Positions 5,082 to 13,044 of a DNA stretch of 64,000 nucleotides are shown here, in pieces. The notes under the pieces are model-generated. The model saw only the letters and a program-made list of their open reading frames with translations, ran no database searches and was not told the DNA's origin. Both the position numbers and the translations under genes were made by a program. Each line of letters opens with the position of its first letter. Positions within the stretch are counted from its first letter, which is position 1. The stretch lies in the NCBI RefSeq assembly GCF_004364865.1, contig NZ_SOAU01000001.1, forward strand, positions 4,186,001 to 4,250,000, given 5' to 3'. The DNA comes from Ilumatobacter fluminis (GTDB taxonomy: Bacteria > Actinomycetota > Acidimicrobiia > Acidimicrobiales > Ilumatobacteraceae).

Positions 5082-5738
5082 CTACGGGATGTTGGGCGCC
5101 CAGGCTTCCAGGGCGTCGAGCATCGTTCTCGACATCGTGCGGTGTTCCTTGGCGATTGCCTTGCTGCCGTCATCGTCGAGTCGCCAGCCGATCGCGAGCG
5201 CGCCGAAGTAGTTGCCGCGGAAGTACGGCAGGATGTCGGCGGTCTTGAAGTACCCGGTCAGGGAGTCGGGGACGTCGACCGTCGGCTCCCACCTCGGCGC
5301 ATCGATCGCCGGCAGCCCGAGCGCTTCGACCGCTGCCAGCACGTCCTCGTCGTGGGTTCGGTCGGCGAAGTCGCGCCCGGTGTAGCGGTAGCGCTCGTGG
5401 CCGTCCGGGTCGATCACGAGCAGGGCGGGCAGCCCGATGCCGTTGCGTTCCTCGGGGTCGAACAGGTCGAGCGGACGCAGGAACCGCTCACCGCCCGGAT
5501 CGGCGACGAATCGGATCGACTCGAGACCCCACCGCTGCGTCATGCCGGCTTGCCGGACGTCGTCGTCGACGCTGATCGCGATGACCTCCGCACCGGCGCC
5601 GTGGATCCGGTCGTGTTGCGTTGCCAGTCGCACGGACTGGGCACAGCAGTACGGTCACCAGTCGCCGCGGAACGTGATGAGCAGCACGGCGCCTTCGCGC
5701 TGCCGCAACGTCAGGATCTCCTCGTGCACGGTGTTCAT
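5082..5738 (-). CDS. Peroxiredoxin-like selenoprotein with in-frame TGA at the catalytic Cys position
   Basis: Read from ATG 5738, this is a 218-residue AhpC/TSA (thioredoxin-fold) protein. Codon 28 (5657-5655) is TGA, giving ...TFRGDW-U-PYCC.... In this family the position is the peroxidatic Cys of a WCPYC-type site, and Cys31 keeps the CxxC partner. After the TGA the frame continues with normal redoxin features (VIAISVDDD, LPALLVIDPDG) to TAG at 5084-5082. The start is supported by GAGGAGGG just upstream and an ATGA overlap with the TetR stop. A SECIS-like hairpin starts 6 nt after the TGA. Without Sec decoding, translation would stop at 27 residues, or restart at GTG 5633 without the active site. 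Likely role: thiol/selenol-dependent peroxide or disulfide reduction in the cytoplasm. Alternative: a pseudogene with one nonsense mutation. The Sec machinery is outside the window. Confidence 0.82.
5617..5648 (-). promoter_or_regulatory. Bacterial SECIS-like hairpin 3' of the in-frame TGA
   Basis: On the minus strand, UGC (5648-5646) pairs with GCA (5619-5617). Two mismatches follow, then UGCC (5643-5640) pairs with GGCA (5625-5622). After one bulged C (5639), AGUC (5638-5635) pairs with GACU (5629-5626). The apical loop is CGUGC (5634-5630). The loop begins 21 nt after the UGA and has G as its second base. This agrees with published bacterial SECIS rules: a short apical loop about 16-37 nt from UGA, with a G in its first two bases. 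Confidence 0.72.
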
Positions 5739-6367
5739 GAACCCTCCTCGGTTCTGGTCGAGTGTGTCGTTGGTCGGTCTGCGCCCGTGTCGATCACGGA
5801 GGACACGACGGCATGGGCGCGGCGATGGAGTTCTTCGGATGGCATACCCGCCCGAGCGAGCGACATGAATCCCTGCATCGCCACGCTGAGCGTCGCCGTC
5901 GCGGCGTCGATGTCGACGCCCGGCCGCAGGCGTCCGGATGCGGCGGCGCGTTCGACTTCCCGACGGAGGCTGGTCTCGATCACCGCCACGCCGATGAGGA
6001 CGGCATCACGCATCGCGTCGTCGAGGTCGTCGGCCGATGTCGTCGTGAGCAGGCAGCCTCGCAGCGCCTCGGAGGTGTCGGGCTGCTGCACGGAGCGCTC
6101 GAAGAACACGGTGATGTTCGCGACCGGGTCTCCCTCGCCCGACAGGTACTTGTCGACGCGTCGACGGACGACACGATCGACGTAGTGCTCGATCACCGCG
6201 ACACCCACGCCGCCACGAGATCCGAACCGTCGGTAGATCGACGGCGCCTTCACGTCGAGTGCCTGTTCGAGGTCGCGGATCGAGGTCGACGACCAACCGC
6301 GACGCCACACCACGTCGACCGCTCGGTCGAGGAGATCGGTGTCGTCGTACTTGGGAGTTCTGGCCAT
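5735..6367 (-). CDS. TetR family regulator, coupled to the selenoprotein gene
   Basis: A 210-residue protein with an N-terminal TetR helix-turn-helix (STSIRDLEQALDVKAPSIYRRFGSR read in part, about residues 27-50) and a helical ligand domain. Its TGA overlaps the ATG of the peroxiredoxin-like selenoprotein (ATGA), so the two genes are co-transcribed and probably translationally coupled. It is divergent from the haloalkane dehalogenase; both promoters lie in an 88-bp AT-rich gap. It probably represses its own operon and perhaps the dehalogenase in response to an organic or oxidising ligand. The ligand is inferred only from neighbours. Confidence 0.9.
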   Translation of the reverse strand: MARTPKYDDTDLLDRAVDVVWRRGWSSTSIRDLEQALDVKAPSIYRRFGSRGGVGVAVIEHYVDRVVRRRVDKYLSGEGDPVANITVFFERSVQQPDTSEALRGCLLTTTSADDLDDAMRDAVLIGVAVIETSLRREVERAAASGRLRPGVDIDAATATLSVAMQGFMSLARAGMPSEELHRRAHAVVSSVIDTGADRPTTHSTRTEEGS

Positions 6368-10197: not shown

Positions 10198-10813
10198 TAC
10201 GGTCGATCGCGTGGACGACCGGAGGGGACCGACCCGAACCCAGCGAGAGCGCACGAACGCCACGCGGGCCGCGCTCGTCGACGCCACACTCGATCTGCTC
10301 GCCGAACGTGGATGGGCCGCCACGACGTCGGTCGCTGCGTGCGAACGTGCCGGGTTGACGCGAGGCGCGCTGGTGCACCACTTCGGGGACCTGCCGACCC
10401 TTCTCGCCGACGCTCTCGAGGCGCATTACGCACGGCTGTCGGCCGAGATCGCCGACGAAGCGGCTCCAACATCGCTCGCCGATCTCGTCGAGACGACGTG
10501 GACCGTGATCGAGCGGGGTCGTTTCAAGATCGTCATCGAGGCGTGGCTCGCCGCGGCCAACGATCCGGAGCTCGGACGCGCCATCGGCCCCGTCGTGACC
10601 CGGTTCGCCAAGCTCGTGGATCCGGCCGAACGCCGTGACCTCGCACCCGACGACGCAACGCGGGCGCTGTACCTCACCGCCCGCGAAGCGATGCTGGGGC
10701 TTGCGCTCGGGCGCGCCACCGCCCAGGGTCCGCTTCCCCACGAACGCATCGTCGTCGACCAACTGATCGAGCTCGCTCGCATCCATGACGAGCGCCGAGG
10801 AGGAACACCATGA
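10184..10813 (+). CDS. TetR family regulator of the MFS/molybdoenzyme region
   Basis: About 209 residues. The TetR helix-turn-helix (TTSVAACERAGLTRGALVHHF, about residues 44-65; 20 of these are TSVAACERAGLTRGALVHHF) is followed by a helical ligand domain. Start choice is uncertain: ATG 10184 lies inside the operator palindrome, while in-frame GTG 10211 would place the operator fully upstream. Neither has a good SD. Its TGA overlaps the ATG of the molybdoenzyme (ATGA), so they form one operon. Confidence 0.85.
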   Translation: MYVSDTVDRVDDRRGPTRTQRERTNATRAALVDATLDLLAERGWAATTSVAACERAGLTRGALVHHFGDLPTLLADALEAHYARLSAEIADEAAPTSLADLVETTWTVIERGRFKIVIEAWLAAANDPELGRAIGPVVTRFAKLVDPAERRDLAPDDATRALYLTAREAMLGLALGRATAQGPLPHERIVVDQLIELARIHDERRGGTP

Positions 10814-13044
10814 CCGTCACCGGCCCCGCTCCGGGCGACACGACCACCGATCGGCGAATCGGCTATTCGGTCTGCACCATCTGCGACATCGGATGCCAGC
10901 TCCGCTCCGTCGCCGAGGACGGCAAGATCGTCCAGATCCTGCCGCACGACTCGCCGGCCGTCGCCCGCAACATCTGCTACAAGGGCACCGCTGCGCCGCA
11001 CATCCACAATCATGCGGAGCGAATCCGGGTACCGCTCAAACGGGTCGGCGAACGGGGTGACGACCGGTGGGAGGAGATCTCCTACGAGCAGGCAATGGAC
11101 GAGATCGCCGGCAAGCTCCGCACGGTCGTCGACACGTACGGACCCGAGGCCCTCGCCGTGTCGACGTCGGGTTGGAACACCCAGACGACCCACGGGTTCG
11201 ACCGGCGGTTCATGAACCTGCTCGGTTCACCGAACTGGATCTCCGGGGTCGCACTCTGCGCGGGAAATACGGCCGCCGTCAACCGACTCACCTACGGATG
11301 GATGCCGTTCCCCGACATCTCGAACTCGAGCTGTGTCGTCCTGCTCGGCCACAACCCGCGCAAGCACTCGTGGACGCCGATCTACAACATGATCGAAGGT
11401 GCCCGCAAGCGGGGCGCAGCGACGATCGTCGTCGACCCTCGTATCTCCGACCAGGCGGAGAAGGCGACCATCCACCTTCAGATCGAGGCCGGAACCGACA
11501 GCGCGCTCCTGCTCGGCTGGCTCAAGGTCATCATCGACGAACACCTCTACGACGCATCGTTCGTCGACGACTGGTGTGTCGGCTTCGACGAACTGAAGGC
11601 CCGCGCCGACGAGTACCCGCTCGACCGCGTCGCCGGTATCTGCGGCGTGCCTGCCGACCGGATCGCCGAGGCGGCGCGCATCTACGCCCGCGCCGATGGC
11701 GCCTGCATCCCGTGGACGCCGATCACCGACCAGCAACTCGACTCGACCTCGGGCATCCGCCTCCAATCGATCCTTCGGGCGATCACCGGCAACCTCGACG
11801 TGGTCGGCGGCGAAACGCTCAACGCACTCAACCCGGGGTGGCTCACCGAGGCCGACCTCCAGCTCCACGACGAACTCGGCGCCGCGCAGCGGGCCAAACA
11901 GCTCGGCTACGACACCCACCCGGTGTTCACCTATCGAACCGCCGAGATGCTGCGGCCGCATCTGAAGCGGGTATGGGGTCGCGAGTGGGTCGACCAGGTG
12001 ATGGGCTGCCACATGGCCAATCCGACCGAAGTCTTCCGGGCGATGGCCGACGGCGATCCGTATCCGGTCAAGGCGTTCATCACCCTCGGCAACAACACGT
12101 TGCTGTCGTATCCGAACCAGCACCAGATCCACCGGGCGCTCCTCAACCAGGATCTGATCGTCGCCCACGAGATCTTCATGACGCCGACGGCGATGCTCGC
12201 CGACTACGTCCTGCCCGGCGACGTGTTCACCGAACGCAACCACATCGCCGACGCATGGGCATGGGGGAACCGGCTGACCGTGTCGGAACGAATCGTCGAC
12301 CCGCCCGGGGAGGCGAGCTCGACGTTCCGATTCTGGACCGATCTGGGCCGCCGATTCGGCTTCGAGCAGCAATTCCCCTGGGACACCCTCGAGCAGGTAC
12401 TCGACCATCGTCTCGAACCGTCCGGCCGGACGTGGACCGAGTTCCGCGACTCGGTCGTGATGGAGATGCCGCCACCTGCATACCGCAAGTACCGCAAGAC
12501 GGGCTTCGCGACGCCGTCGGGCAAGGTCGAGTTGTCGTCGTCGATCCTGGAAGCACTCGGCTTCGACCCACTCCCCTACTACCGCGCCAAGCCCAAACCG
12601 ACCGAGGAGTACCCCTACCTGGTGTTCTCGGGCGTCCGTGAGGATCCGTTCTTCCAGACCGGTCAACGGAACATCGGGGTGCTGCGCCGACGGGTGCCGG
12701 CACCCAGCTTCTTCGTCCACCCCGACGACGCTGCCCGCGACGGCCTCGTCGAGGGCGAGTGGGCACGGCTCGAGACCCCACACGGTCAGGTTCGAGCAAC
12801 GGTGAGCGTGCAGTCCGGCATGCGGCCGGGTCACCTGCGCGTGCCGCACGGCTGGTGGTATCCGGAAACACGCGGCGACGTCGAGTTGGCCGGAGCGTTC
12901 GTCTCGTCCGACGCAGTCCTCACGATCGACTCCGACGAGCTGGTCGACTACGAGCAGGGAGTGCCGCACTTCAAGGGGTACCCGGGACGGCTCGTGCCGT
13001 GCCTCCCGCCCGACGGCATGGGCCGCACGACCCTCGAGGGCTGA
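10810..13044 (+). CDS. Molybdopterin oxidoreductase with N-terminal [4Fe-4S] domain
   Basis: A 744-residue enzyme of the DMSO-reductase/CISM superfamily. The N-terminal iron-sulfur ligands are Cys22, Cys25, Cys29 and Cys56 (C-x2-C-x3-C-x26-C). Cys150 in SGVALCAGN is the expected molybdenum or tungsten ligand, so the metal is bound by Cys rather than Sec. The molybdopterin dinucleotide-binding domain forms the C-terminal 120 residues. There is no twin-Arg leader, so it is probably cytoplasmic, and no electron-transfer subunit gene is adjacent. The family includes formate dehydrogenase, thiosulfate reductase and acetylene hydratase types; the substrate cannot be named. AGGAGG precedes the ATG, which overlaps the TetR stop. 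Confidence 0.9.
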   Translation: MTVTGPAPGDTTTDRRIGYSVCTICDIGCQLRSVAEDGKIVQILPHDSPAVARNICYKGTAAPHIHNHAERIRVPLKRVGERGDDRWEEISYEQAMDEIAGKLRTVVDTYGPEALAVSTSGWNTQTTHGFDRRFMNLLGSPNWISGVALCAGNTAAVNRLTYGWMPFPDISNSSCVVLLGHNPRKHSWTPIYNMIEGARKRGAATIVVDPRISDQAEKATIHLQIEAGTDSALLLGWLKVIIDEHLYDASFVDDWCVGFDELKARADEYPLDRVAGICGVPADRIAEAARIYARADGACIPWTPITDQQLDSTSGIRLQSILRAITGNLDVVGGETLNALNPGWLTEADLQLHDELGAAQRAKQLGYDTHPVFTYRTAEMLRPHLKRVWGREWVDQVMGCHMANPTEVFRAMADGDPYPVKAFITLGNNTLLSYPNQHQIHRALLNQDLIVAHEIFMTPTAMLADYVLPGDVFTERNHIADAWAWGNRLTVSERIVDPPGEASSTFRFWTDLGRRFGFEQQFPWDTLEQVLDHRLEPSGRTWTEFRDSVVMEMPPPAYRKYRKTGFATPSGKVELSSSILEALGFDPLPYYRAKPKPTEEYPYLVFSGVREDPFFQTGQRNIGVLRRRVPAPSFFVHPDDAARDGLVEGEWARLETPHGQVRATVSVQSGMRPGHLRVPHGWWYPETRGDVELAGAFVSSDAVLTIDSDELVDYEQGVPHFKGYPGRLVPCLPPDGMGRTTLEG

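Follow-up and report, generated by a model that had tools for sequence, protein, structure and literature searches.

A partly conserved, probable SECIS hairpin behind the in-frame UGA of a probable UxxC peroxiredoxin-like selenoprotein gene in Ilumatobacter fluminis

In the bacterial SECIS (bSECIS) model, 16-37 nt separate the UGA codon from the apical loop, and a G lies within the first two loop positions (PMC13188914). Peroxiredoxin-like (Prx-like) selenoproteins of PF00578/PF08534 that carry a UxxC motif are listed in three earlier studies (PMC1088965, PMC2398784, PMC13188914), namely as a Prx-like protein (PMC1088965), as Prx-like 1 and 3 (PMC2398784), and as a Prx-like thiol:disulfide oxidoreductase (PF00578) and a redoxin family protein (PF08534) (PMC13188914). 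We analyzed a 64,000-nt stretch of the I. fluminis genome, hereafter referred to as the window, in which an initial annotation had proposed a bacterial SECIS element. The kind of system found here is already known, i.e., a UxxC Prx-like selenoprotein with a bSECIS element, and the gene and its hairpin are a new example of it; our literature search found no paper linking Ilumatobacter or Rubrobacter with the selenoprotein of 5082-5738. The features of the locus are as follows.

5735..6367, minus strand: TetR-family regulator gene (Pfam TetR_N and TetR_C_13), directly upstream of the selenoprotein gene
5082..5738, minus strand: AhpC/TSA (peroxiredoxin-like) selenoprotein gene, 218 aa, with its start ATG at 5738 and its TGA stop at 5084-5082
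5655..5657, minus strand: in-frame TGA, very probably read as Sec, codon 28, in the context RGDW-U-PYC
5617..5648, minus strand: lower stem of the hairpin (UGC/GCA and UG/CA; 5648-5643 with 5623-5617), formed in the window and unconserved
5624..5640, minus strand: SECIS core, a 6-bp upper stem CCAGUC/GACUGG with the loop CGUGC, supported by 102/102 pairs and compensatory changes
5630..5634, minus strand: apical loop CGUGC, second base G, starting 21 nt after the UGA

Reading through the in-frame TGA of 5738-5082 yields a product of 218 residues (...LLITFRGDW-U-PYCCAQSVRLATQ...), which matched both PF00578 (3.8e-12) and PF08534 (4.9e-12) above the Pfam cut-offs. The protein thus combines an AhpC/TSA or redoxin domain with a UxxC motif, and it resembles the listed Prx-like UxxC selenoproteins in fold family, in the motif and in having a UGA followed by a hairpin, a resemblance judged from their published descriptions. 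It differs from them in that Sec far outnumbers Cys at this position (78 to 9 in the sampled set). The best NCBIfam match was NF040769 (SelL-related redox protein), also a thioredoxin-fold redox protein; membership was rejected because the match scored 26.6 bits where 120 are required and covered residues 13-82 only. Peroxiredoxin selenoproteins of the TxxU type share the AhpC/TSA superfamily and carry Sec at the peroxidatic position, whereas here Sec occupies the Thr position and Cys the peroxidatic one; the motif U-P-Y-C is UxxC, and this assignment was therefore also rejected. Ordinary peroxiredoxins recovered in the same searches (L028, L030, L031 and L034) had TxxC motifs, such as TPVC and TVVC, and a PDB sequence search with the protein returned only weak matches to ResA-type thioredoxins. 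Upstream, the TGA stop of the TetR gene shares 4 nt (ATGA) with the ATG of the selenoprotein gene, and the two genes are probably cotranscribed, in this genome only. A conserved operon with the TetR gene was rejected, since no TetR relative was found beside the selenoprotein homologues in the homologous loci tested.

A search of relatives recovered orthologues 55-65% identical, each containing a single TGA, and the protein is conserved on both flanks of the UGA (55-66% identity). One TGA, at this codon, was present in 14 of 14 matches of a family-wide search. About 80 further matches came from class- and phylum-wide searches; the majority contained one TGA and a smaller number none, and at the class level nearly all had UGA at this codon. 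After removal of duplicates, the UGA codon corresponded to TGA in 78, Cys in nine and Ser or Asp in three of 90 distinct homologues. All 17 distinct orthologous sequences of the window's clade had TGA at the same codon, and a quick tree placed them in one group. The Cys, Ser and Asp forms all belonged to a single family surrounded by TGA forms, which suggests that Sec was lost within that family, on a midpoint-rooted tree with many unresolved forks. Cys was also present in L017 from Azospirillum (RGDW-C-PYCC), the one distant relative given by a search of genome contigs. No relative of the selenoprotein was found in a search of viral contigs, and a plasmid search gave one distant match, in a haloarchaeal record. 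Three homologues of one family (L119, L122 and L124) carry Asp (GAC) or Ser (TCC) at the redox position, a substitution that suggests loss of the original activity. Separately, three remoter AhpC/TSA relatives from the same order (L024, L027 and L032) have their own in-frame TGA (ADW-U-PYC, GFF-U-PNC and GFL-U-PFC, respectively) and probably represent further selenoprotein sub-families.

These comparisons bear on whether the UGA could be a true stop, owing to a pseudogene, a sequencing error or a downstream GTG start giving a 183-aa protein. The frame past the UGA is indeed open from GTG 5633, and this shorter form is what an automatic pipeline would annotate. However, the UGA recurs in dozens of species between a conserved upstream RGDW and a downstream PYC, a downstream start would drop half of the redox motif, and a Shine-Dalgarno-like ribosome-binding sequence (GAGGAGGG) precedes the upstream ATG at 5738. 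We consider a true stop highly unlikely.

We further searched the host genome (complete, 4.78 Mb, one contig) for the Sec machinery, and found selA, selB, selD and tRNA-Sec. The selB product scored 271.9 bits, over the cut-off, and has a C-terminal SelB-wing_3 (winged-helix) domain; selA adjoins selB (405.6 bits), selD scored 324.5 bits, and the tRNA-Sec has the anticodon UCA. As to gene order, selA and selB are adjacent, with tRNA-Sec about 83 kb away (C1:765588-767898 and C1:850365-850456) and selD far off; the family of G788 differs in that tRNA-Sec often lies beside selB. Both selB and tRNA-Sec were present in 16 of the 17 genomes with the window-type gene, the exception being an 89% complete draft. 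Since the machinery is widespread in the clade, its co-occurrence with the selenoprotein gene says little. At least one more gene is likely served by the Sec system, namely a formate dehydrogenase alpha-like gene (L159; C1:1377583-1379454, minus strand) with one in-frame TGA (NRT-U-H) and a stable hairpin whose loop, GGUCU, lies 18 nt after the UGA; L159 is a probable second selenoprotein gene of this genome. The window itself contains a formate dehydrogenase-related molybdopterin oxidoreductase gene (10810-13044, plus strand) without an in-frame TGA, which matched TIGR01591 at 272 bits, below the cut-off. A recoded genetic code, in which UGA would specify tryptophan or be passed by unspecific readthrough, would fit the frame, which is open whatever residue the UGA encodes. 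Against it, UGA ends the selenoprotein gene, the TetR gene and selB in the same genome, the homologues that lose the UGA mostly have Cys and none has Trp, and the tRNA-Sec anticodon is UCA; such recoding is extremely improbable. The homologues that retain the UGA, and the full set of Sec genes, weigh more as evidence than the single fold.

The hairpin itself is present to the base on the minus strand as the initial annotation had drawn it, with 11 bp, a bulged C, a two-base mismatch and the loop CGUGC. After the UGA (5657-5655), the sequence reads CCGUAC-UGC-UG-UG-C-CCAGUC-[CGUGC]-GACUGG-CA-AC-GCA, so that the full structure comprises 3 + 2 + 6 = 11 bp, interrupted by the bulged C and a two-by-two mismatch and capped by a 5-nt loop. 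The proposed geometry was likewise borne out, as the stem begins 6 nt after the UGA, the loop begins at nt 21 (20 nt between) and a G lies within the first two loop bases. Compared with the bSECIS model (PMC13188914, Fig. 2A), we found no essential difference: the hairpin sits in coding sequence just after the UGA, at a spacing of 20 nt within the 16-37 nt range, with a 6-bp upper stem, a 5-nt loop in which the second base is G and the next U, and a minimum free energy under -7.5 kcal/mol. Its energy is about -12 to -13 kcal/mol, and RNAfold returned essentially the drawn fold at -12.2. No Rfam family reached its gathering score for the hairpin.

None of this, however, sets the single fold above chance. 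In dinucleotide shuffles, the hairpin energy was not beyond chance (z = -0.70; 41 of 200 equally stable), and recoding the hairpin with synonymous codons gave P of about 0.34, with no excess stability over the controls. The hairpin satisfies a scripted version of the constraints quoted in PMC13188914 (a spacing of 16-37 nt; a loop of 3-9 nt with G as its first or second base; an energy no higher than -7.5 kcal/mol). The same constraints are satisfied by 67% of 1500 random coding positions from this window, and an equal or better energy occurs at 26% of the 1500. A stricter shape, with six uninterrupted pairs and a loop of 3-6 in which G precedes G or U, is found at 6.6% of the coding positions in the window. 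Accordingly, the published criteria that had been cited for the element do hold and are unspecific, and the fold does not on its own provide evidence separate from the protein alignment, as had been claimed, its energy being indistinguishable from codon-shuffled controls. Energy was rejected as SECIS support, because shuffles, recoding and random coding positions all show it to be ordinary. Support for a SECIS element therefore comes only via the comparison of homologues, and only for the upper six base pairs and the loop.

We examined covariation in the 17 distinct orthologous sequences of the window's clade, all with UGA, with the U of this codon counted as position 0. The six upper pairs were formed in 102 of 102 cells. 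When synonymous codons for the same residue were permuted within columns, the mean was 98.5 pairs and 102 was reached in three of 5000 permutations. Pair 20-30 was G-C in 11 sequences, A-U in four and G-U in two (n = 17); Gln CAG occurred with either Leu codon, CUG or UUG, and Gln CAA exclusively with UUG. Pair 21-29 was C-G in 16 sequences and U-A in the window, which alone has Ser UCC in place of Leu together with Arg CGA in place of CGG. The covariation score was 0.321 versus 0.231 in shuffled sets (1/500) and 0.020-0.064 with the arms slid, and the loop G (5633) and U (5632) were invariant in the orthologous clade. Double-sided changes are few: the Gln codon changed three times independently on the tree, and only two of these changes map to branches with good support, a number too small to carry a tree-based sign test. 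In nearly all pairings, the Leu codon follows the Gln-codon change. The compensatory changes predicted for orthologues that keep the TGA were thus recovered (CAG/CUG versus CAA/UUG), in the upper stem only. The lower stem was paired in 45 of 85 cells versus a synonymous-permutation mean of 45.3, with no excess; its pairs singly formed in 10, 8, 4, 9 and 14 of 17 sequences, failing in up to 13 of 17, and it was rejected as a conserved part on these counts. Since the upper pairs are always formed and the lower ones occur at chance, conservation is confined to the upper stem plus loop, 5640-5624, and the 11-bp stem originally taken as the element stands only in these upper 6 bp and loop.

Synonymous sites provided a second line of comparison. 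Synonymous codon identity was higher in the hairpin than elsewhere both in the window's clade (0.71 vs 0.53, P = 0.012) and in the other Sec clade (0.68 vs 0.46, P = 0.023); the 12 non-Sec homologues showed no such excess (0.54 vs 0.63, P = 0.75). In the family that mixes Sec and non-Sec genes, where the core consists of four pairs around the loop GGUC or AGUU, the core stem was intact in 17/17 Sec versus 3/12 non-Sec genes (Fisher P = 2e-5, ancestry ignored), and the loop G-U was kept in 17/17 versus 1/12 (ancestry ignored). Structure is therefore relaxed where Sec is replaced, as judged from 12 sequences that belong to one family and represent few independent losses. Changes of amino acid (Val to Ala and Ser to Ala) contribute to these counts. 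The expectation that homologues replacing Sec would lose the stem held for most of them, with three of the 12 still intact.

It could be argued that the UGA encodes Sec and that the drawn hairpin is incidental, a by-product of protein constraint on G-Q-L-V-R/K-L and of high G+C, with SelB using another structure. The ordinary energy of the single sequence, the frequency with which the published constraints are satisfied at random coding positions, and the permutation mean, by which amino-acid conservation alone yields nearly all of the pairs, agree with this. Yet synonymous codons covary across the stem to a degree that few permutations equaled, the hairpin shows fixed synonymous sites solely in genes that retain Sec, and most genes without Sec have also lost the core stem. 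An incidental hairpin is accordingly unlikely. The proposal of a bacterial SECIS element serving a Sec UGA is instead supported by covariation and by stem loss with Sec, and from these comparisons of sequences the hairpin is very probably a functional SECIS element, with its UGA read as Sec in a UxxC peroxiredoxin-like selenoprotein.

Under the SECIS reading, when the UGA at 5657-5655 reaches the ribosome, the CCAGUC/GACUGG stem and CGUGC loop would be engaged. SelB loaded with Sec-tRNA(UCA) would bind the loop and upper stem through its winged-helix domain, and Sec would be inserted at residue 28. Sec would then occupy the Thr position of T-x-x-C, with the invariant Cys31, three residues on, at the position of the peroxidatic Cys. 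The product probably works as a thiol peroxidase or a thiol:disulfide oxidoreductase in which Sec is the nucleophile. On a more tentative note, these proteins could form an undescribed, mainly Sec-bearing Prx-like sub-family confined to one bacterial phylum. Sec would then be the older state, replaced by Cys, Ser or Asp within a single family, and the SECIS loops would be CGUGC in the window's clade and GGUC in the others, at an equal distance from the UGA; we hold this to be possible, a little short of probable.

These findings correct the gene model, which ordinary annotation would cut at the UGA or start too late, and add a well-supported SECIS element with a defined minimal form of 6 bp plus loop. 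They also indicate that a SECIS call cannot rest on folding energy alone in high-G+C genomes, where two-thirds of random coding positions satisfy the published rules, and that synonymous covariation across the stem can support one. A family with many Sec and few Cys, Ser or Asp members is well suited to the study of the joint loss of Sec and its hairpin.
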